Source: a virus. Taken from it: a DNA stretch of 22,267 nt. A program made the translations under genes and the position numbers. The notes beneath the pieces are model-generated. The model was given only the letters and a program-made list of their open reading frames with translations, ran no database searches and was not told the origin of the DNA. Positions 2,562 through 20,857 of this stretch are shown here, in pieces (position 1 is the first letter of the stretch; the number at the start of each line of letters is the position of its first letter). The stretch covers positions 1 to 22,267 of the IMG/VR virus record IMGVR_UViG_3300032298_001076; one strand, 5' to 3'.

Positions 2562-3352
2562 GACTTAGCTTTTTTCTTTTTTGGCGATTCTTCTTTTGGA
2601 GAGGGTTCTGAATCCCCTTTCTCTTCAAATAAACCGTCGAAATCTTCTTTATTGGCAGCTTGGTTATAGAACCAGAAAGCAGCAACATTAGAAACCTTTC
2701 GAGCAATTTCAAAATAAAGAGAGTCTTCTTGCTCTTCTTTTTGATAATAATCCTCAAGACGTTCTTCGAAATCTTCGCCAGAAAAATAAGGCTTAGGTTT
2801 TTCTTGGTCTTCTTTTTGAATGTAAGTAAGATTGATGATATACCACATAAGAAGACGATTCTGAGCCTTCATATCAGCAGTGTGATCAAAGAGAGACTGA
2901 TAAGCCATTTCAGTCTTAACAATCTGATCACGAACCTGAGCCATTTCAAGAGAAAGAGCTTCGGTTTTCTTTTTGCGATTTTCGTCTGTCTTGTTGACGG
3001 TTTCGTTTTCAGTATATTCTCTCTGTAGTTCTAGAAGCTTTTGGTAATTTTGATAAAGAGTTTTCGCTTCTGTTTCGCTCATCAAGCCGCCAGTATCAGA
3101 ATACTTTTTAACCAGCATTGCTTTTGTAAGAATGCCCTTTTTAACACAGCGGGACATTTCCACGCTATATTCCAAATCAGCTTCTTCGATTTGACGGCGC
3201 GAAGGCTTCTTGAGAAACACCTTGATGGGAGATTTCTCGCTTACTTTTTTAGTTACCTTTACTTCATTGCCTTGTTCGTCGTTTGAGACGGACTCAACAG
3301 GTTTCTCGACTGTTTCATAAACAGTAAAATTGTAGATGTCTTTGAATTCCAT
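2558..3352 (-). CDS. Putative tail assembly chaperone or tail structural protein (264 aa)
   Basis: I do not recognise a named family. The ATG at 3352 is preceded by AAGGA at good spacing. The N-terminal third looks beta-rich (MEFKDIYNFTVYETVEKP). The middle is a long charged coiled coil (about residues 90-165, with NYQKLLELQREYTENE and LSLEMAQVRDQIVKTEM). A helical segment follows (NRLLMWYIINLTYIQKE), and the C-terminus is very basic and probably disordered (ending KKKKAKS). The stop codon overlaps the TTG start of the next gene, so the two are translationally coupled. Position between the tail-tube module and the tape measure suggests the tail-chaperone slot that lambda fills with G and GT. 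A canonical slippery heptamer lies near the 3' end but cannot give a fusion because a stop intervenes. Confidence 0.65.
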   Translation of the reverse strand: MEFKDIYNFTVYETVEKPVESVSNDEQGNEVKVTKKVSEKSPIKVFLKKPSRRQIEEADLEYSVEMSRCVKKGILTKAMLVKKYSDTGGLMSETEAKTLYQNYQKLLELQREYTENETVNKTDENRKKKTEALSLEMAQVRDQIVKTEMAYQSLFDHTADMKAQNRLLMWYIINLTYIQKEDQEKPKPYFSGEDFEERLEDYYQKEEQEDSLYFEIARKVSNVAAFWFYNQAANKEDFDGLFEEKGDSEPSPKEESPKKKKAKS

Positions 3353-9636: not shown

Positions 9637-11169
9637 TTAGGAAATTAAAATGTTTTCGCGAGAAAATGCAGAGGCAAATTTTTCTTTGAGGCTCTTATTT
9701 TCTTGGGAAGTTTCTCCGTTGTTATTCGGGATAGTTTTTTCAGCAGAAGCCTTGGCTTTTTCAAGAGCTTCTTCTGCGAGTTCAGCTTCGGTCTTTGTGG
9801 AAGCGGTGGATTTGTTAAGTTCGCTTAGGCGCTTTTCAACTTCAGCAGTGATCTTAGCCTCTGCTTCTTCGGCAATGCGAGCAAGAACTTCTTTATTCTT
9901 GTGCTTGAGAACAACTGAAAGCTTTTCTTGATAAGCAGCGAAAGCTTCGTCAGAAGAATCAACTTCTTTAAGTTCGGAAGCGATTACTTTGCGATCTTCG
10001 TCTTCAAGAGAATAAACCTCGTCAATGTTTGACATGCGAGCGTTAAAGCGGGCCAAAGCTTTTTCAGCTTCTTGAGCAGCTTCAATTTCTTGAAGCTTCA
10101 CTTTTGCGTCAGACAAGTCTTTTTGAAGAGTTTCGACAGAAGCCAAAAGTTCTTTGGCTTTGGTTTCGGAAGCTTCTTTCTCAGTTTTAGCAGAGCGATA
10201 CTCTTCGTCTTTTTGACGAATTGCATCAGCAAAAGTGCTTGTCATGCTGGCGATAGCTTCTTCCGAAATTTTCTTCTCTGTAAGAGAAGCTTTGAGTTCT
10301 GAAAGGAATGATTCTAAATCCATAGATTTTTTAATGTTTACATCTTCGATTTTAAATTGGGAAATATTTTTTGTATTCATTGCAAATACTTTCTTGTCTC
10401 TTGGGTCTTTGAATGAGACGTTTTCTTCTGGAGGATTGCCATTATCGAGCAACAAGCCTTTAACATTGGCGGCTGGATTTGCTGTGAAACCAATACCAAG
10501 AGGATAAACTGAACCCTTTACCAAGCGATAGATTTTGGAACCATCTTCCATTTTTCCGTTACCGCCGTAAGCGCGAAGCTTGCCCTTGAGTTCGTCAATA
10601 TGTTTGGGATTTGAAATGATTTCAGCCTCTTTTAAATTTGTGCTTCCAACAGCTAAAACATATTCATTAAATCCAAGCTCCCAGCTTGCAGAAATTGTAT
10701 TGAAAAGATTGCTGCTTTCACTAGTTGATTTGTAAATCAAATCAGTAAATTTAGGATCAACAAGTTTATAGATTACCGCGCCCAAGGCTAGATTAACTAA
10801 ACCATTTGTTTCAATAACTTCCTGATTATTTAGGGGAACATTTTCGCCCCAAGAATTAAAACCAGCCGAAACAATATGACCCACAATTTGTTTCTTATTG
10901 TGCTCAATATTTGTTGGTTTATGGATAAAGTATGGCGCGATTTGAACGGCAGTTTGAGAGTCAATGCCGTCATCGTTGCGATTGAATTGGTTCACAACAG
11001 CGGCGTCAAAAGCCACTCCCATGAGGTCAATATTTTTGCCCAAGTCAATGCTTTGACTAGGCAGCAGGCTCTTAAGATTCTCTAGCGAAGCTGTTGAAAT
11101 AAAAGAGTTTTCGCCAATTTTGCACTGGCGAATAGAAACATCAAATTCTGTTTTATATTTAAAATTCAT
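9637..11169 (-). CDS. Putative capsid maturation protease fused to a scaffold (510 aa)
   Basis: Residues 1-260 look like a prohead protease. KPTNIEHNKKQIVGHIVSAG (84-103) matches the HN/HD...VG pattern around the catalytic His of U35-type proteases. NTISASWELGFNEYVLAVG (157-175) matches the catalytic Ser segment. Candidate catalytic residues are H90 and S160 or S162. Residues about 290-470 are a long Lys/Glu/Ala coiled coil (EKEASETKAKELLASVETLQ, then KDLSDAKVKLQ), typical of an internal scaffold that is cleaved out during maturation. The order protease-scaffold, decoration, capsid is the usual one. The gene starts one base after the upstream stop. Homology of the protease part is judged by motif only. 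Confidence 0.7.
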   Translation of the reverse strand: MNFKYKTEFDVSIRQCKIGENSFISTASLENLKSLLPSQSIDLGKNIDLMGVAFDAAVVNQFNRNDDGIDSQTAVQIAPYFIHKPTNIEHNKKQIVGHIVSAGFNSWGENVPLNNQEVIETNGLVNLALGAVIYKLVDPKFTDLIYKSTSESSNLFNTISASWELGFNEYVLAVGSTNLKEAEIISNPKHIDELKGKLRAYGGNGKMEDGSKIYRLVKGSVYPLGIGFTANPAANVKGLLLDNGNPPEENVSFKDPRDKKVFAMNTKNISQFKIEDVNIKKSMDLESFLSELKASLTEKKISEEAIASMTSTFADAIRQKDEEYRSAKTEKEASETKAKELLASVETLQKDLSDAKVKLQEIEAAQEAEKALARFNARMSNIDEVYSLEDEDRKVIASELKEVDSSDEAFAAYQEKLSVVLKHKNKEVLARIAEEAEAKITAEVEKRLSELNKSTASTKTEAELAEEALEKAKASAEKTIPNNNGETSQENKSLKEKFASAFSRENILIS

Positions 11170-11170
11170 A

Positions 11171-11794
11171 TTATAAATCTACAGTGTTTCTCCAAGCTTC
11201 TTTGGTTTCTTTTAATTCGTCTTCTCTTGTTTCGTTTTTTTCGTGCAACTCCCATTTGCGAAGCTGCTCTACAGTGAGAATTTTAACAGAATTAGCTGAG
11301 GTTTTTGGCTTTTCGCGATACTCCATCTTGTCACCTTTTTTGGCGGCAGATTTTGACTCTTGCATCTTTTTCTTTTCCAATTCTTTTAAGTATTCTCTGT
11401 CATCCTTTAAATCTTTTTTTTCAAGCTCTAATTCGAACTCGTCTTCTTTAATGTCTTTTTTCTCAAGCTTGATTTTTTCTTTAAGAGTTTTGCCTTTCTC
11501 TTCATCCTCTTCTTCTTCCTCTTCGTCCTCCTCTTCTTTTTTGATTTCTTCAAGATCGTCTTCTTCATCTTCGGCCATGATCTTTTCTTTCATTCTTTCA
11601 AATGAGACAGCGCAAGACATAGCAGCTTCACGATCTGTTTTACCAGAGCTTTCGGAGATGCATTTAGCCATGAACTTCTTGTAAGAAGCTTTTTCTTTAT
11701 CGCTCATCTTTTTTTCCGCAATTGAGATTTCAATTGTGGAACCATTAATGACAACTGTTTTTTCGAGAGGAATTGGAACTTCGTTAGGACTCAT
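11171..11794 (-). CDS. Highly acidic coiled-coil protein between portal and protease (207 aa)
   Basis: I do not recognise the family. The N-terminal part contains two cysteines in FMAKCISESSGKTDREAAMS and CAVSFERMKEK, spaced like a small conserved motif. Residues about 75-100 are almost entirely Asp/Glu (EEEDEEEEEEDEEKGK). A charged Lys/Glu coiled coil of about 60 residues follows, and a C-terminal piece has VKILTVEQLRKWELHEKNE. Such acidic proteins can act as assembly chaperones or scaffold helpers, and its place between portal and protease favours a head-assembly role. This is inference. The start lies 11 bases inside the end of the portal gene. The acidic run makes the opposite strand a serine-rich open frame that should be ignored. 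Confidence 0.6.
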   Translation of the reverse strand: MSPNEVPIPLEKTVVINGSTIEISIAEKKMSDKEKASYKKFMAKCISESSGKTDREAAMSCAVSFERMKEKIMAEDEEDDLEEIKKEEEDEEEEEEDEEKGKTLKEKIKLEKKDIKEDEFELELEKKDLKDDREYLKELEKKKMQESKSAAKKGDKMEYREKPKTSANSVKILTVEQLRKWELHEKNETREDELKETKEAWRNTVDL

Positions 11795-13799: not shown

Positions 13800-16700
13800 T
13801 TAGACAAAAAATGGAGCGAATGTAGCTTTTGTATCATCCGCTTTAAAATTCATCATATCAAAGTAGGTTTGAACCATCCAGTTACCCAAAACCAAAGCAG
13901 AGTAAGAGTCGCGCCGAGCTTTATCTGCCCCATTTTGTCTCTTTAAATTTGATGGCAGGTCGAAAGACTGTGTGCCTTGACTAGTTGTTGAAACTTGGAT
14001 AAGGGCGCACTCAGCCTTGGTCAAATCAATCATATCTTTCTGGTGCTCGATAAAATCAATCATTTTTGCGGCTGTATTCTTTTCATCCGCATCTGCTACT
14101 CTCAAGAACCTGATTTGATCAATAGGAATGCTCTTGCCTCTTTGGCGTTGATAGTCATCATTAACTGCGCTACAAGCAAACCAAATTTTCTTATGATCAA
14201 AAGAAGACTGTAATGATTCGTTTGCAAACCGAATCCACTGAGAAGTTGGACGGCGAAGGTGGCATATTTTTTTAGACGATAAGTTGTATTGATTGCGAGC
14301 TTCGCGCAAAGATGCGTCGTAGTTTTGAACGTCGTCAAAGTCTGCATCAAAACAGTCTATTTTTAAATCATTACTTTTGAACAGGTCGCTTTCGTTGCAA
14401 GCGTTTAGGAATTGCACGCCACCATTATAGTCACCAACAACACAAACAATATTGAAGCTTGTTAAGAGATAATAAAAATAAAAAATATGATCTTTTAGGC
14501 GAGTGCCAGAAATAGCATAGCTATGAACAACTGTGCCTGTTCGCTTTTCTTTATTGATTTTAATAACATGCATGCCAAAGTCGTCAGAGCTTTCGCTTTC
14601 GGACCAAGATGGGTCAAAAGATAAAATATATTCATCATTTGGTTCGCCAGCAACTTCCACACATTGACCCTGACCATCTTCAATGGTGCAAGCTGCCATT
14701 TTACTAACTTTAAAATAACCGCTGGAATCATCAGTAAATATTGAGCCAAACTCGCGATCAAACTGAGACTGACTCAAGGTTGATTTTGCTTGTTGAATCA
14801 AAGACTGATCGTATAACTGAGTTGGCGCACAGTCATAACTCAAGTGCATGATAACACGATGCGCCACATCACTTTTCTCAGGATTGAGAATGAGATGCTC
14901 GTATTGCTGATATAATTTATATAAATATTCGAATTTATAAGAAGCAGAAGAAAGACCAATGATTTTATTATTTGGCCATTGGGTGCGATCTTCTTCTTGC
15001 ATTTTGCCCGCTTCAATCAATTGGGTTTCTAGATTATAAATTTCCTGACGTTCTGTGGGGTTTTCCACAACAGACAAGAAAGGTAAAATAACTTCATTAA
15101 AGATTCGTTCTGGCATGAGCAAGAACTCATCAATAATCATTCTTTGAAAGCGGAAGCCGCGCAGTTTTTCTCCATCACCAAGAGGCAGCGCAGTGATTTT
15201 GCTGCGACCAATTTCCATAACCCACTGATCATTATTTTTAGAAACTCTTGTGACTGCCTCTGCGAACATGGATGCTTTTGGAGTTTTCATAATGTCTTCA
15301 ATCTTGCTGAAGATCATTCGACTCTGACGAAAGCTTTTGGATATGATGCCAATATGCACTCCTTGATGCAGAACAGCATCTAAAGCAGCGAATAAGCCTG
15401 TTGTAAACGACTTTGATTGTCCGCGTGAGTTATGATGAACAATGCCATTTCCAATATAACATTCTTCATTATCTACAGTTATATCAATAGATTCGACTTC
15501 GCATTCATTAATAAATTTAACAGGACTAAAAACTACGCCTTCTTCTTTAATGCTATTGATAATGGCTTGGTTTTTATGAGATAGATTTTTTAATTTATCA
15601 AACTCATTTTGAGAAAATGAATTTGCCCAAGAACCTTTCTTGCCAACTACTTTTTCAAAGGGGCCGTCTGTTTTTAATAAGCTAGGCAGCTCAGGAACTA
15701 ATTTATTTTGATAATTTCTAGTTTTAGAGCGCTCTAAGCTTTTGGCTAAATTATTTTTTTTATGACTAACAATAAAGTCAATTTCTGTTTGAAAAGTTTT
15801 TAAACTATTAAAATCATTCGATAGAACTAGATCGTAATATTTAACTCCTTTGTTTTCTCCAGATAATCTTACACAAGATTCGACGCCGAGATTGTTTAAC
15901 AGCATTTTAACTTGCCGAAGTAGTTGTAAAGAAGTATTTTTTAATCCAATTTTACTACCTCCTTCTTGATAAGAAGCGTAACCATCCGCATCAAATAATC
16001 CGCCGATCAAAGCGCAGATTTCCTTTTTAGAAGCGGTTAATAGCTGGTCGCAAATAATTTTATTAGCAGATTTTAAGGAAATATCCCAACCAATAGATTC
16101 GATCCATTTTATAAACTCGCGATTAAAAATTGCATATTCATAAAAATTAAGATTAGAGCTTCTTTGGCGAGCGTAGCTTTTTAAATTATTGTCTTGTATA
16201 AATTTTAAAATAGTTTCATGAACCTCAATATGTTCGCTGCAATAATGCATTCCGTAACCATCTTTGGAAACGTATCCATCTCCTAAGACATAACCTAATA
16301 AATAAAATAAATGCGCATTATTTTTATAACCGCTGTTTTTTAAAATATCATTGTCTCCCCAAATATTTGTTCCTAATTTAACGGGTACTTGATCGCCAAT
16401 TTTTAAATCTTCAATCTTTTTAAAGTCAAATTGTCCAGCGTTATATGTCAAAACCTTATGCCCCTTTTTAGCTTTAAAGGAGTCTCCAGATTTTAAAATA
16501 ATTTCAAGTCCAAGCTGGTTTGGATTTTCCCATTTATCTAAAACTTTATTTAACCCTTTTCTAGATCGTACTTCGTCTCCGATATTAATGTCTTTGATTT
16601 TTTTAAATCCCTCGGAAGTTAAAACGTATTCATTTTTTTCTAAACACCAAACCCCCAAAAAGTAATCTGTGAGCATCATGGACTTGATCGCCATGTGCTG

Positions 16701-16880
16701 AAATGGAAACAATTTAATACCAGTCAATAGTTCGCAAGTGAAAGACGGATTCTCCTTGAGAAACTTGTACAGCATGATCTTAGCTTCTCTCTCTTCTAAA
16801 AAGCCTTTTGCATCAAGAATTTCTTGATTAATATTTAGAAAGTGTTTTCTTCTTTTTTGATTGCCTTCAGTCCAAGCCAT
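13800..16880 (-). CDS. terL: Terminase large subunit with an in-frame intein (1026 aa precursor)
   Basis: Motor ATPase and nuclease that packages DNA through the portal. After removal of the intein (residues 79-484) the mature protein is about 620 aa, normal for the family. The intein splits the ATP-binding loop: GVW (76-78) joins SRGQSKSFTTG (485-495), a Walker A-like P-loop. Walker B is MIIDE (581-585), and the coupling motif is probably GLSSAS (642-647). The RNase H-like nuclease domain has acidic residues at D756 (YILSFDPSW), D817 (VVGDYNGG) and D991 (KARRDSYSALVLGNW). The start overlaps the upstream nuclease gene by 14 bases. The portal gene follows downstream. Function would depend on correct splicing, because the P-loop is interrupted. 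Confidence 0.93.
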   Translation of the reverse strand: MAWTEGNQKRRKHFLNINQEILDAKGFLEEREAKIMLYKFLKENPSFTCELLTGIKLFPFQHMAIKSMMLTDYFLGVWCLEKNEYVLTSEGFKKIKDINIGDEVRSRKGLNKVLDKWENPNQLGLEIILKSGDSFKAKKGHKVLTYNAGQFDFKKIEDLKIGDQVPVKLGTNIWGDNDILKNSGYKNNAHLFYLLGYVLGDGYVSKDGYGMHYCSEHIEVHETILKFIQDNNLKSYARQRSSNLNFYEYAIFNREFIKWIESIGWDISLKSANKIICDQLLTASKKEICALIGGLFDADGYASYQEGGSKIGLKNTSLQLLRQVKMLLNNLGVESCVRLSGENKGVKYYDLVLSNDFNSLKTFQTEIDFIVSHKKNNLAKSLERSKTRNYQNKLVPELPSLLKTDGPFEKVVGKKGSWANSFSQNEFDKLKNLSHKNQAIINSIKEEGVVFSPVKFINECEVESIDITVDNEECYIGNGIVHHNSRGQSKSFTTGLFAALDAVLHQGVHIGIISKSFRQSRMIFSKIEDIMKTPKASMFAEAVTRVSKNNDQWVMEIGRSKITALPLGDGEKLRGFRFQRMIIDEFLLMPERIFNEVILPFLSVVENPTERQEIYNLETQLIEAGKMQEEDRTQWPNNKIIGLSSASYKFEYLYKLYQQYEHLILNPEKSDVAHRVIMHLSYDCAPTQLYDQSLIQQAKSTLSQSQFDREFGSIFTDDSSGYFKVSKMAACTIEDGQGQCVEVAGEPNDEYILSFDPSWSESESSDDFGMHVIKINKEKRTGTVVHSYAISGTRLKDHIFYFYYLLTSFNIVCVVGDYNGGVQFLNACNESDLFKSNDLKIDCFDADFDDVQNYDASLREARNQYNLSSKKICHLRRPTSQWIRFANESLQSSFDHKKIWFACSAVNDDYQRQRGKSIPIDQIRFLRVADADEKNTAAKMIDFIEHQKDMIDLTKAECALIQVSTTSQGTQSFDLPSNLKRQNGADKARRDSYSALVLGNWMVQTYFDMMNFKADDTKATFAPFFV
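15429..16646 (-). mobile_element. Intein with LAGLIDADG homing endonuclease in the terminase P-loop
   Basis: Codons for Cys79 to Asn484 of the terminase precursor encode a 406-aa intein. Block A is CLEKNEYVLTSEGFKKIKDI, beginning with the nucleophile Cys79. Block B contains KKGHKVLT with His141. The C-terminal block ends YIGNGIVHHN with His483-Asn484, followed by Ser485 as the +1 residue. This is a complete splicing set (Cys, His-Asn, Ser). The two LAGLIDADG motifs are LLGYVLGDGYV (Asp201) and LIGGLFDADGYA (Asp299), both with the catalytic acid, so the endonuclease is probably active. The segment looks more AT-rich than the flanking exteins, in keeping with a mobile origin. Boundaries were checked at codon level. 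Confidence 0.93.
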
Positions 16881-17790
16881 TTAATAATCCTCCGTTGATA
16901 TAAAATTGTAAATCTACGTTCCAAAGCTTTTTGCCATGAACCAAAAGAAGAGGAATAAGTTTTTCACTGTTCTTGCGATTACTGGAGAATACAAACTGGC
17001 AGCAGTCTTTAAATTCTATTTGCAAAGCTCTCATGTTGTGGTAGATGTAAGCAAGATTGCTCTTGTGAGAGTTTTTGCCATTGTTTTTCTGTATCTGTTC
17101 AAAGTCGCTTTCCACAACCACAAAAATGAAAGACTCTTGCTCACGCGCACGCGAGAGTTCGCGCTTAAATCGTTCCAAGTTATCTTCGCTCACTGTGGAT
17201 TTAAAGTCTGATTCAGACTTGCGATCAACAAACGTATAATTAAAATACTTTGGCTCAACACAGTAATCTCCCAAATCCAGCTTTAGAAATTCACTATTCT
17301 GAAAGGACAAAGGCTGCTGCTCTCGCGTGTCAATAAAAATTTTTGGGTTTGAATGAGTGAGACATTCTTTTGAAAACTTATCGCCAAACATAAGCTTGGA
17401 GCCGCAACTCTCAGTTGCCGCAGAGTAACTGCCAAAAAACTTTTTAAAAATCGAAATGCTTGGCAAACCATAACTATTTAAGATAACTTCGCATGGCGCA
17501 AATCCATCTTTAGTTTTAGAACAAAGCATGTCTAAAAGAATCATGCAAACTCCCAAATCTTTAGAGTGCTGTTGGTTGAAAAATTTATCCTGATTCTCAT
17601 TGCTGAGAAAATAAGTTTGAAAATATTGCTCTTTGTTTTTAAAAGGCAATAAATCGCCAGTAAGCAAGTCTCTGCGTTCAAAATGCTTTACATAATAATC
17701 ATGCAAGAACATGTCATGCTTTTTAATGTGAGCATGAAGACTGCGTTCTGAATCGAACCTTTGTTGACATTCTAAACAATTAAATAACAT
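16867..17790 (-). CDS. C2H2 zinc-finger / ERCC4 (XPF)-type nuclease next to the terminase (307 aa)
   Basis: Predicted endonuclease with three visible modules. First, residues 5-25 are a textbook C2H2 finger (CLECQQRF...SLHAHIKKH: C5, C8, H21, H25, with F12 and L18). Second, around 78-130 is a stretch like the homing-endonuclease-associated repeat, with LPSISIFKKFFGSYSAATES then CG. Third, residues about 150-290 are an ERCC4-type nuclease: IDTREQQP (D154), LGDYCVE and FVDRKSESD (D189, R190, K191, D195) match the GDx(n)ERKx3D signature with Asp for Glu. I chose the ATG at 17790; an in-frame TTG at 17808 would add six residues. It overlaps the upstream gene by 11 bases and the terminase by 14. 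It may assist packaging, as terminase-linked HNH nucleases do, or act as a homing-type enzyme. Confidence 0.82.
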   Translation of the reverse strand: MLFNCLECQQRFDSERSLHAHIKKHDMFLHDYYVKHFERRDLLTGDLLPFKNKEQYFQTYFLSNENQDKFFNQQHSKDLGVCMILLDMLCSKTKDGFAPCEVILNSYGLPSISIFKKFFGSYSAATESCGSKLMFGDKFSKECLTHSNPKIFIDTREQQPLSFQNSEFLKLDLGDYCVEPKYFNYTFVDRKSESDFKSTVSEDNLERFKRELSRAREQESFIFVVVESDFEQIQKNNGKNSHKSNLAYIYHNMRALQIEFKDCCQFVFSSNRKNSEKLIPLLLVHGKKLWNVDLQFYINGGLLNGLD

Positions 17791-18832
17791 CTTCTTTTGA
17801 AACACCAAGAACTCTCGCTTTCCATTCGCCCATGCTTTCTAGTCTATTAGCTTCTTCGCTAACCACCTTCTTTTGCATCTCCGCGATTTTCACCATGTTT
17901 TTGCGCTCTTCTTCATCTTGAAATAACTGAACCAAAGAAATAATTGATGCATTTTCTTTGTATTTATTTTTCATTCTTTCGGCGCGATCACCTTGCAGTT
18001 TTTTGGTGAGATTTTCAATGCGGCCTTCGCATTGATGATACTCACTAGACTTTGCCTTAATAATTTCAGCAAGTCTAACAGTCATGTCTTGCTGATCATC
18101 AATTTCATCAAATTGATCATTCAGCTTGTTCAAGTGCTTGCCAACAACTTCCAAGTTAATGATTTCTTTGCACACGTTCATGTAAAGATTTAATTCATCA
18201 GAGGATAGGTCTGGCTTGTCCCAAGTTAAACGAATAAATTCTTCTTCAAAGAGCACGCGATCTTTTTGTGACAAGTAATTATTCATGATTGTCACGAAAC
18301 GAGAATTAGAAAGATTAATGGTGAGCTTATCAACACAAATCTTATATTGGCGAGAAATTTTATTTTCGTCTAAAGTTAGACCTGTAGCATCATTTATCTT
18401 TTTTAAGACGCGACTAGAAGCTTTTGGCGGAATGTATTCTGTGAGCAATGCGGACTCAGAATTGCCAACAAGATCAGGATTCACTAGTCTAATGTAGTCA
18501 AGAATCGCTCTCTGTTCCATGCCAAGCTTTTTAACTTCTCGGTCTTGGAAAATTAATTCAGCAATGCGAAACGTTGATGTTCCAGCTTGAGTTTGCAAAA
18601 GAGCAAACTCTTTTTGAGAATCAGTCAACTCAATGCTTTCATTTTTTTCTTTTTTAGTTGTTGTGAAAGAGTAATTATTATCAATTAAAAATTGTCTAAC
18701 TAAACGACCTTCTTTTTTACGACCATCAAGAGACTGGTCATTAAAACAACGCTTCGTCAACTCATTTAAATCAGTAATTGTTAAATAGTTTTGACGGATA
18801 AAATCTTTTTGTTCTTCCGTTAAAGGATTCAT
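17780..18832 (-). CDS. Candidate small terminase subunit / DNA-binding protein (350 aa)
   Basis: I do not see a diagnostic motif. The N-terminal 60 residues (TEEQKDFIRQNYLTITDLNE, LTKRCFNDQSL and GRLVRQFLIDNN) look like a helix-turn-helix domain, as in small terminases. The middle contains NNYLSQKDRVLFEEEFIRLT and LSSDELNLYMNVCKEIINLE, and the C-terminal 120 residues are coiled coil (LTKKLQGDRAERMKNKYKEN). Oligomerising coiled coils plus a DNA-binding N-terminus and its place upstream of the large terminase make the small subunit the best guess. At 350 aa it is longer than most small subunits. It begins within the sigma-like gene's stop (ATGA) and ends 11 bases inside the nuclease gene. Confidence 0.5.
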   Translation of the reverse strand: MNPLTEEQKDFIRQNYLTITDLNELTKRCFNDQSLDGRKKEGRLVRQFLIDNNYSFTTTKKEKNESIELTDSQKEFALLQTQAGTSTFRIAELIFQDREVKKLGMEQRAILDYIRLVNPDLVGNSESALLTEYIPPKASSRVLKKINDATGLTLDENKISRQYKICVDKLTINLSNSRFVTIMNNYLSQKDRVLFEEEFIRLTWDKPDLSSDELNLYMNVCKEIINLEVVGKHLNKLNDQFDEIDDQQDMTVRLAEIIKAKSSEYHQCEGRIENLTKKLQGDRAERMKNKYKENASIISLVQLFQDEEERKNMVKIAEMQKKVVSEEANRLESMGEWKARVLGVSKEDVI

Positions 18833-19515
18833 AGAATATCTTTATTTTTTAGAATCTCAATCGCCTTGTCCCTAAAGAGCTTTTTAAGATTTTTAATTTG
18901 TTTATAGCCAATTTTGCGATTCTTCTCGCTGCTGCGGTAGCCTAAAAATTTTGCCACTTCTTCGTCAGACGCCTTTTCAAAGAAAAGCATTTCATAAGCG
19001 CGAAAATAATTTTCAGATAAAATCTTTTTCATTTCAATGTTTAGCAAAGAAATGGATTGAGAAAAGTCCACTTGATCCCACGAAATTTCCTCAACTTCTC
19101 TTGAGTGGTTTTCTAATTCAAGAGGAAGTTTAATGTTGTAGCCGTGCCGTTTGCCCTTCTCCCAAACTGCGTATTTTTCACAAGAAGAGTCTTGAGTTCC
19201 GCTAATATTTAAATTGCAAAAATCATCGCCCAAATTATGAGGACAATTCACGCATGGTTTTACATAGTTTGTGTAATTGTTCCTGATTAAATTACGAATT
19301 TGATTCGTGATGATTCTGGAAACCCAAGGCTCCAAGGGTTTTGTTTGGTCCCACATGTGCCATTTTTTAAACACATGCATTTTTATAATCTGCTCAACGT
19401 CTTCAAAAGACATCCATTTTAACACGTTAAGCTGCCATTTGTTTCGGCGCTTACGAATTTCAACTTCAATGATTGGAAGCCTGTCCTCGAAAAGAATTTT
19501 TTTACGTCTTGGCAT
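18829..19515 (-). CDS. Sigma-70-like transcription factor with a four-cysteine insert (228 aa)
   Basis: Probably redirects host RNA polymerase to phage (late) promoters. Residues about 36-83 resemble sigma region 2: SFEDVEQIIKMHVFKKWHMW, followed by WVSRIITNQIRNLIRNN. Residues about 165-222 resemble region 4, with AYEMLFFEKASDEEVAKFLG and a basic recognition-helix-like IGYKQIKNLKKLFRDKA. Between them lie four cysteines (C88, C91, C100, C112: PCVNCPHNLGDDFC...SSC) that could bind zinc or an iron-sulphur centre, an unusual insert for a sigma factor. The overall size is like T4 gp55, but this is not proof of homology. The start lies 14 bases inside the zinc-ribbon gene and the stop overlaps the next start (ATGA), so it is co-translated with both. 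Confidence 0.68.
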   Translation of the reverse strand: MPRRKKILFEDRLPIIEVEIRKRRNKWQLNVLKWMSFEDVEQIIKMHVFKKWHMWDQTKPLEPWVSRIITNQIRNLIRNNYTNYVKPCVNCPHNLGDDFCNLNISGTQDSSCEKYAVWEKGKRHGYNIKLPLELENHSREVEEISWDQVDFSQSISLLNIEMKKILSENYFRAYEMLFFEKASDEEVAKFLGYRSSEKNRKIGYKQIKNLKKLFRDKAIEILKNKDIL

Positions 19516-20134: not shown

Positions 20135-20857
20135 TTACACTTTTTTATCCATACTTTCGATTTTTTCAACAATGAATTTAAGAATTTCGCTGCGGAAAAT
20201 GTCGCTTTTGTCAAATTTAAAAACATGAATACCTTTTGCTCGACTTTCTTCATTATCGAAGCATTCAATAAATTGTGCAAAACCGCTATTGCGAATATCG
20301 CTTTGCATAAGATCGCCAGAGAAGAAAATCTTGGCATTCTCGCCAACGCGAGTAACAAGCGTTACAAGCTCTTTTTTAGAGAAGTTTTGGCACTCATCAC
20401 AAACAACAACTTTATTTTGCCAGCTTGAGCCGCGCACAAAATTTACTGGCATGGCATTAATAACGCCATCTTTACGCAAGGACACCATTGTTGGCGCTGT
20501 GATGATTTCGTCCATCTTGTCTTCAAGAGGAAGCAAGAAAGGCAAGAACTTCTCATCCACAGTGCCTGGCAAGCTGCCCAAGCCCTTGTCACCGCTCTCT
20601 GCAATGCTGCGAATATATGTTAAGTCCCAATCTCTGTTTGATGCTAAAAGATTCAAGGCAGAATAAACGCTCAGGTAAGTTTTCGCACTTCCTGCTGGCC
20701 CCGCTATAAATACTATTTTTGTTTCGGGATTTAAACAGATTTCTAGCAGTTGTTTTTGTTTTTCGGAAAATTTAAATTTCCGCTGTTTGAATTCGACTTT
20801 ACGTTCAATCGAACCGATTTCGAGAGAACCCTCTGAAGACTTTTTAGATTTGGCCAT
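20135..20857 (-). CDS. phoH: PhoH-like P-loop ATPase (240 aa)
   Basis: A PhoH-family nucleotide-binding protein, common as an auxiliary gene in phages and of uncertain role, probably in RNA or phosphate-stress metabolism. Walker A is GPAGSAKT (53-60), Walker B is VVVCDECQNF (150-159), and a sensor-like RVGENAKIFFSGDLMQSDIR follows at 170-189, all typical of the family. Length matches phage PhoH proteins of about 200-250 aa. An N-terminal basic stretch (residues 1-30) precedes the core. The ATG at 20857 is preceded by the box GTGTAATATAA (20863-20873) and a five-base spacer, with no Shine-Dalgarno. It sits in the virion operon, after the tail-tube-like gene. Confidence 0.87.
   Translation of the reverse strand: MAKSKKSSEGSLEIGSIERKVEFKQRKFKFSEKQKQLLEICLNPETKIVFIAGPAGSAKTYLSVYSALNLLASNRDWDLTYIRSIAESGDKGLGSLPGTVDEKFLPFLLPLEDKMDEIITAPTMVSLRKDGVINAMPVNFVRGSSWQNKVVVCDECQNFSKKELVTLVTRVGENAKIFFSGDLMQSDIRNSGFAQFIECFDNEESRAKGIHVFKFDKSDIFRSEILKFIVEKIESMDKKV

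Follow-up and report, generated by a model that had tools for sequence, protein, structure and literature searches.

An ERCC4-type nuclease gene beside the large terminase gene in uncultured tailed phages

The locus and the encoded protein

We analyzed a stretch of 22,267 bases from the viral record IMGVR_UViG_3300032298_001076, which we call the window. Its minus strand contains a gene for an ERCC4-type nuclease that is directly followed by the gene for the large terminase subunit (TerL). Based on the position and conservation of this gene, we believe that its product is probably an accessory nuclease dedicated to the DNA-packaging machine of the phage. The gene and the recognizable parts of its product are listed below.

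16867..17790 (minus strand): ERCC4-type nuclease gene; ATG start, 307 amino acids; PF02732 and phrog_3490 matches; XPF/Hef fold match
17716..17778 (minus strand): C2H2 zinc finger, residues 5-25; ligands C5, C8, H21 and H25
17401..17475 (minus strand): stretch resembling the homing-endonuclease-associated repeat (PF18780), residues 106-130; weak here, E 0.14
16924..17349 (minus strand): ERCC4 nuclease domain, residues 148-289; range from the structure alignments
17320..17331 (minus strand): DTRE motif, residues 154-157; D154, R156 and E157 invariant in 104/104
17263..17271 (minus strand): GDY motif, residues 174-176; G174 and D175 invariant in 105/105
17206..17226 (minus strand): DRKSESD motif, residues 189-195; ERKX3D with E changed to D; D189, R190, K191 and D195 invariant in 106/106

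The PF02732 (ERCC4) model scores 30.6-32.2 bits on the window protein, exceeding its cut-off of 24, and phrog_3490, named 'ERCC4-type nuclease', matches with E 1.4e-13. An AlphaFold model of the 307-amino-acid protein, built on 20 aligned family sequences, has a mean predicted local distance difference test score (pLDDT) of 92.3. When this predicted structure was compared to the PDB with Foldseek, the top matches were XPF of A. pernix (2bhn, E 1e-6) and Hef of P. furiosus (E 5e-6), with XPF-ERCC1 and Mus81-Eme1 entries ranking below them. Matches among viral proteins include ERCC4 proteins of haloarchaeal viruses and of large eukaryotic viruses. The A. pernix XPF structure 2bgw aligns to the model with Z 12.3 and a root-mean-square deviation (rmsd) of 2.5 over 124 residues (VIA-align), and the P. 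furiosus Hef structure 1j24 aligns to residues 148-288 with Z 11.5 and rmsd 2.6 over 123 residues. Searches of PDB sequences found no match with the single protein as query, chiefly zinc-finger proteins with a profile of the whole protein (Hef at E 0.11) and Hef alone with a profile of the nuclease domain (E 0.018). A preliminary description of this DNA had proposed an ERCC4 core with the motifs IDTRE, LGDY and DRKSESD. All three motifs are present (PF02732 at 30.6-30.7 bits in this check, cut-off 24), and the core was found by profile (PF02732, phrog_3490) as well as by structure (Z 12.3 to XPF).

The active-site motif of the ERCC4 family is GDXnERKX3D, with DxRE upstream. Its positions are all present and invariant in the window's clade, yet the E of ERK is D throughout. 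Specifically, the third motif reads DRK in all 106 distinct clade sequences that cover the site, whereas Hef (1j22) has ERK at the aligned position. None of the nine active-site positions (D154, R156, E157, G174, D175, D189, R190, K191 and D195) varies among the 104-106 distinct sequences in which it is covered. The window protein resembles XPF and Hef in its ERCC4 fold and in the DxRE, GDY and (E/D)RKX3D motifs (motifs were compared with Hef). It differs from them in having DRK for ERK, in having neither a helicase nor a helix-hairpin-helix pair, in carrying an N-terminal C2H2 finger and a helical module, and in being encoded in a phage packaging operon. In XPF and Mus81 of cells, a helix-hairpin-helix pair follows the nuclease domain. 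The window protein has no space for one, as it stops at residue 307, about 18 residues past the nuclease domain, and the helix-hairpin-helix family is not among the 20 families found in the 20 alignment members. No HNH nuclease family was found in the window protein either.

On the single window sequence, the Pfam C2H2 model scores 18.1 bits, under its cut-off of 27. Across the family alignment, however, all 20 sequences, that of the window among them, match this model at E<=1, and the zinc ligands C5, C8, H21 and H25 are identical in the 97 distinct sequences covering them (97/97), confirming the canonical finger that had been described. The homing-endonuclease-associated repeat, also described at the outset, is weak in the window itself (13 bits versus a cut-off of 26, E 0.14); E<=1 is reached in 7/20 members, window included, with a best E of 3.2e-6. 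For the N-terminal half as a whole, a tblastn search of phages gave no match, the phrogs gave weak, unnamed matches, and PDB sequences gave zinc-finger proteins only.

A first scan with the window nuclease yielded 55 loci with 44-100% identity, and a profile scan yielded at least 558 confirmed relatives, from which we retained the 80 best. An open reading frame (ORF) of the family with at least 120 amino acids was found in 154 of 164 clade loci (10 of the 164 being second cuts of known contigs), leading to 107 distinct aligned sequences. The ten loci without such an ORF are contigs that end near TerL or carry only a fragment of the gene. The gene is under strong purifying selection: its ratio of nonsynonymous to synonymous substitution rates (dN/dS) is 0.035-0.085, similar to those of its neighbors, in the 6 of 21 pairs with a computable dS, the other 15 being saturated. 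Exactly one copy occurs in each of 13 chosen large contigs (43-134 kb). In one locus (L038:2400-2948), the ERCC4 frame ends early and the match runs on to position 3320, possibly due to a sequencing error. A genome collection contained a single relative, locus L170, on a phage-like contig that was binned as a Halobacteriovorax metagenome-assembled genome. Among 129 genomes of the order to which Halobacteriovorax belongs, only this same genome matched, apart from one weak match with four stops.

Linkage to the large terminase gene in two lineages

The genes surrounding the nuclease gene in the window are as follows.

13800..16880 (minus strand): TerL gene; Terminase_6N 22.6 bits, barely exceeding the cut-off of 22; phrog_2 E 4.7e-22; in-frame intein
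17780..18832 (minus strand): candidate small terminase (TerS-like) gene; 350 amino acids; assigned by position only
18829..19515 (minus strand): sigma-70-like protein gene; Sigma70_r2 23.9 bits versus a cut-off of 24
20135-20857 (minus strand): PhoH-like gene, the first in the packed gene run

These minus-strand genes are closely packed in the order PhoH-like, two small genes, sigma-70-like, the 350-amino-acid protein, ERCC4 and TerL. The nuclease gene shares 11 nucleotides at its start with the end of the upstream gene (17780-18832) and 14 nucleotides at its end with the start of the TerL gene, so that the overlaps with both neighbors in the terminase operon are as originally reported. The accompanying statement that the gene lies between the small and large terminase genes stands for TerL (phrog_2, E 4.7e-22), but not for the small terminase. 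The 350-amino-acid upstream protein had no family match in profile searches, and its predicted structure (pLDDT 75) had no fold match below E 0.6 in Foldseek. Its label as TerS is by position only, and we treat it as a candidate. The model is helical, with long helices at residues 211-243 and 248-302. In profile comparisons, the TerS-like protein did not match its counterparts by neighborhood in the phages Slash, MaeS and phiCDIF1296T. No HNH gene is present in the nuclease slot of the window.

When loci were collected using the nuclease, TerL was directly downstream in 97/97 of them, ranging from a 19-nucleotide overlap to a 23-nucleotide gap by match coordinates. To avoid bias, we also ran a search that began with TerL and took the best 80 of at least 487 matches. 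Fourteen already-known loci were not counted, and the 66 newly cut loci were examined. Two of these lack a TerL start and 12 have less than 600 nucleotides upstream; of the short ones, 10 show part of the nuclease and 2 are nearly without upstream sequence. The nuclease is present in all 52 loci that have at least 600 nucleotides upstream, 42 of which are new and 10 of which are second cuts of contigs from the nuclease search. With second cuts removed, the clade comprises 153 distinct contigs, many closely related. Both the nuclease and the TerL start are visible in 149 of the 153, and they are adjacent in 148 of these 149. The exception is L106, one of the 52 loci above, in which an ORF resembling GIY-YIG nucleases by eye separates the two genes. 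In relatives, then, the gene does lie beside the terminase, and the outcome that the preliminary description named as refuting it, a gene always far from the terminase, did not appear, whether one considers the distinct contigs (148/149) or the TerL-first loci (52/52).

On its other side, the nuclease gene touches or overlaps its upstream neighbor in 115/129 cases. Eight loci (L076, L077, L079, L084 and L092-L095) have a gap of roughly 670-690 nucleotides between the TerS-like and ERCC4 genes. In all six of the loci that were translated, this gap holds an ORF resembling a parallel beta-helix. Locus L170, which is outside of the clade counts, has an ORF resembling a methyltransferase by eye (10732-11370) between the nuclease and TerL.

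The finger and the homing-repeat-like module, as well as the inteins and GIY-YIG-like ORFs that invade the same locus, could suggest that the gene is a free-standing homing endonuclease or another selfish gene lodged in the terminase operon. We reject this explanation as highly improbable, since it is largely refuted by fixation: the gene adjoins TerL in 148/149 contigs, is under purifying selection and is never absent where 600 nucleotides upstream of TerL are covered (52/52), with no empty sites. By contrast, the mobile elements at or near the locus are sporadic, with an insert in TerL in 9/149 relatives and an HNH gene in Slash that is not in Stills.

Distant relatives of TerL led us to a second lineage. 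In the first two contigs of this kind, L203 and L204, a bare ERCC4 protein of 158 amino acids overlaps the TerL start. This protein has a PF02732 score of 26.9 bits, above the cut-off, and aligns with the window's nuclease domain in a profile comparison (E 1.5e-7). In general, the ERCC4 protein of lineage 2 is bare, with a length of about 150 amino acids. A scan that began with this ERCC4 protein gave 48 loci, among them L203 and L204 again, and a TerL ORF starts directly downstream in 48/48. Ahead of the ERCC4 gene there is usually a small HNH gene: of the 45 loci with enough sequence, 35 have it within 120 nucleotides and another 8 within 800, while no such gene was detected in the remaining 2. 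With a profile built on the sigma-like protein of the window, a match was obtained 1.1-1.8 kb upstream in 30/48 loci.

The corresponding TerL-first set for lineage 2 has 82 loci, made up of the best 80 of at least 272 and two from another scan. Four contigs were left out as already known; of the loci that were counted, at least L361 comes from a contig already present in the first set. The ERCC4 gene is present in 74 of the 75 loci with at least 600 nucleotides upstream; in the sole miss, L313, the 620 nucleotides upstream are occupied by another ORF. Over the whole set, an ERCC4 profile match occurs in 78/82 loci, with the full motif in 69/78 and an HNH gene upstream in 66/78. The ERCC4 gene adjoins TerL in 33/78 of these, is separated from it by 60-400 nucleotides in 5/78 and is separated by 400-900 nucleotides in 40/78. 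The spacer is mostly one ORF that resembles a Clp-type protease by eye, found in many loci from L292 to L355; PF00574 was tested only on a copy in L204. The active-site motif is ERK in all 69 complete motifs of one set, and in the other set is ERK in 26/28 and DRK in 2/28.

In a tree of TerL proteins, each ERCC4 lineage forms one supported clade. The branch that would decide whether the ERCC4-TerL linkage had a single origin has support of 48/8, with long branches, and the tree does not show a common origin. The shared sigma-like gene favors a common operon of both lineages. A resemblance between the TerS-like proteins of the two lineages (E 0.012 in a profile comparison) is only suggestive.

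Possible roles in DNA packaging

Among isolated phages with the nearest TerLs, ERCC4 is absent from the slot in Slash, HGTV-1, Stills, MaeS, phiCDIF1296T, TR-TP1 and LC76P1. The slot contains an HNH_3 gene in Slash and a DUF5802 gene in HGTV-1, and no gene in the remaining five. The TerL of the Bacillus phage Slash is distant (27% over half its length), and the nuclease in its slot is an HNH rather than an ERCC4 enzyme and is missing from the sister phage Stills. A PF02732 search of whole records found 0/15, even though the L203 and L204 contigs are among them and carry such a gene, so this search is blind to divergent copies. When the window protein was searched, the only named phages to match were haloarchaeal tailed viruses (14 records, 27-33% over the nuclease). 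These viruses (HRTV-5, HCTV-7 and kin; HRTV-25) likewise have an ERCC4 nuclease in a tailed virus, but theirs is bare, at 154-156 amino acids, without a finger, and no terminase is annotated in the stretches viewed. In the open-access literature searched for ERCC4/XPF, no ERCC4 nuclease is described as a packaging-operon gene.

If the gene does serve packaging, the nuclease would be made together with the terminase proteins, and its N-terminal module or a packaging protein would bring it to the replicated concatemer. There, it would cut phage DNA so that packaging starts or continues. As a hypothesis, the preliminary suggestion that the gene meets a packaging need in the way that HNH nucleases do is plausible. 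On the other hand, a simple swap of ERCC4 for HNH is weakened by the fact that Stills does not have the HNH gene of its sister Slash. Moreover, HNH and ERCC4 genes are side by side in lineage 2, so the ERCC4 enzyme does more than stand in for an HNH nuclease.

Enzymes of the ERCC4 family are structure-specific and cut branched DNA. The window nuclease could therefore be a resolvase coupled to the motor, which would cut forks, flaps or four-way junctions that would otherwise stall it. Given a role in packaging, we would assign this mechanism nearly an even chance; as an explanation in its own right it is tentative, though we have a slight preference for it, since lineage 2 has an HNH gene of its own, which would free the ERCC4 enzyme for a different task. 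The comparable enzyme is T4 endonuclease VII (gp49), whose fold differs and whose gene is not known to lie between those of gp16 and gp17; the job proposed here is alike. In T4, gp49 releases Y-DNA on which packaging has stalled, and it also binds to the portal (PMC9958956, PMC3485210). Searches for other resolvases also bear on this mechanism. RuvC and RusA were each found in 0/13 large contigs, with positive controls detected and contig completeness not given. Endonuclease VII (0/10 over the cut-off) and T7 endonuclease I (0/13) were also not found, but the controls of both searches were silent, so these results say little. A lone, weak Endonuclease_7 match in contig G006 overlaps a stronger HNH match. 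Counting against a resolvase are the missing helix-hairpin-helix pair and the possibility that the contigs are incomplete.

Another mechanism, which would also have a substantial though smaller chance within a packaging role, is that of a site-specific nickase. The finger and the repeat-like module would bind cos or pac, and the ERCC4 domain would nick or cut at or near the packaging site with TerS and TerL. The gene's position between the TerS-like gene and TerL fits this mechanism, as do N-terminal modules of a DNA-binding type in a protein whose helix-hairpin-helix pair is missing, and a slot without an HNH gene in the window. The HK97 gp74 gene adjoins the terminase genes, and the ERCC4 gene is similarly beside the terminase in 148/149 contigs. 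Both would be extra nucleases in a terminase context, although their folds differ and lineage 2 has both kinds. In HK97, the HNH protein gp74 promotes cos cleavage by TerL (PMC9410871). We nonetheless regard the nickase as doubtful when taken alone. An HNH gene precedes ERCC4 in 43/45 lineage-2 loci (within 120 nucleotides in 35), meaning that the HNH slot is already filled there. Additionally, a single finger gives little sequence specificity, and no packaging site was found here. One 91.6-kb contig has no 16-base word common to its first and last 3 kb, so that cos and pac are not distinguishable.

XPF/ERCC4 enzymes have been described chiefly in the DNA repair of archaea and eukaryotes. The gene might thus encode a general repair or recombination nuclease that is transcribed with the late genes by chance and has no part in packaging. 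This explanation is compatible with the repair functions of the cellular relatives and with the haloarchaeal phage ERCC4 genes that have no terminase annotated nearby. Papers on magroviruses and Bacillus phages class ERCC4 nucleases under replication and repair (PMC10160649, PMC10535572). The 91.6-kb contig encodes DNA polymerase III alpha, DnaB, RecA-like, SSB, UvdE-like and PD-(D/E)XK proteins, and those replication and repair genes that were placed lie more than 30 kb from the ERCC4 locus. Because of this distance in the one contig examined, a repair role, though possible, fails to explain the gene's place, whereas its position next to TerL is maintained in two distant lineages. We consider a repair nuclease unlikely.

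Several observations weigh against a dedicated packaging nuclease. The change of E to D in the ERK motif could make the enzyme a poorer catalyst. The nuclease residues of TerL itself seem to be intact, judging from D348, D409 and D579, which are invariant in 9 aligned sequences and which we presume to be catalytic by analogy to T4 gp17; the ERCC4 enzyme would then not be needed as a replacement. A replacement for a dead TerL nuclease is in fact rejected, given that the likely catalytic aspartates are kept. Other nucleases are also available: HNH genes occur elsewhere in 6/13 large contigs, one contig encodes PD-(D/E)XK and other endonuclease-family proteins, and phrog_2297 is found in 1/13. 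The large contigs come without completeness values, so the missing resolvases are not proved absent. Finally, being linked and transcribed together is no proof that genes share a function.

Having weighed these points, we still think that the ERCC4 gene likely encodes a packaging nuclease. We lean, with less assurance, towards a broader proposal, in which ERCC4 nucleases are a standing and probably ancestral packaging part in very many uncultured tailed phages. One group would use the zinc-finger version alone and another the bare version paired with HNH, both acting with terminase on replicated DNA. The linkage itself is wider than the preliminary description stated. If the proposal is correct, there would be a further kind of packaging-devoted nuclease besides TerL's own and the HNH and endonuclease VII types, which is a packaging-associated nuclease in a different form, not a new principle. 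Packaging nucleases determine how phage genomes are cut and how the motor handles tangled DNA, and an XPF-type enzyme fixed next to TerL across hundreds of contigs from uncultured phages offers a testable system for asking why an extra nuclease is next to terminase. The enzyme is also of interest as a compact one without the usual XPF DNA-binding part and carrying a different one, and its gene is a marker for terminase operons in viral metagenomes.

The sigma-like gene and mobile elements near the locus

The window's sigma-70-like protein has a cysteine cluster, and its gene precedes the packaging genes in the window's lineage and in lineage 2 alike. It is possibly a late-gene sigma factor.

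The intein in the window's TerL gene has the following location.

15429..16646 (minus strand): LAGLIDADG intein in TerL, residues 79-484, at the Walker A motif; PF14528 above its cut-off; PF14890 35.5 bits (cut-off 35.8)

Inserts of more than 300 nucleotides at the TerL junction are present in 9/149 distinct relatives and not in the other 140, and come in three lengths (1218, 1227 and 1335 nucleotides). The loci with an intein at the TerL Walker A motif are the window, L002, L017, L023, L037, L044, L045, L063, L064 and L079. In lineage 2, L203:1463-5881 is a TerL ORF of 1472 amino acids that contains two stretches of intein splicing domain and three of LAGLIDADG type. GIY-YIG-like ORFs, recognized by eye, occur between the ERCC4 gene and TerL once per lineage, in L106 and in L283:2471-3166, and these insertions show that mobile elements target this locus.

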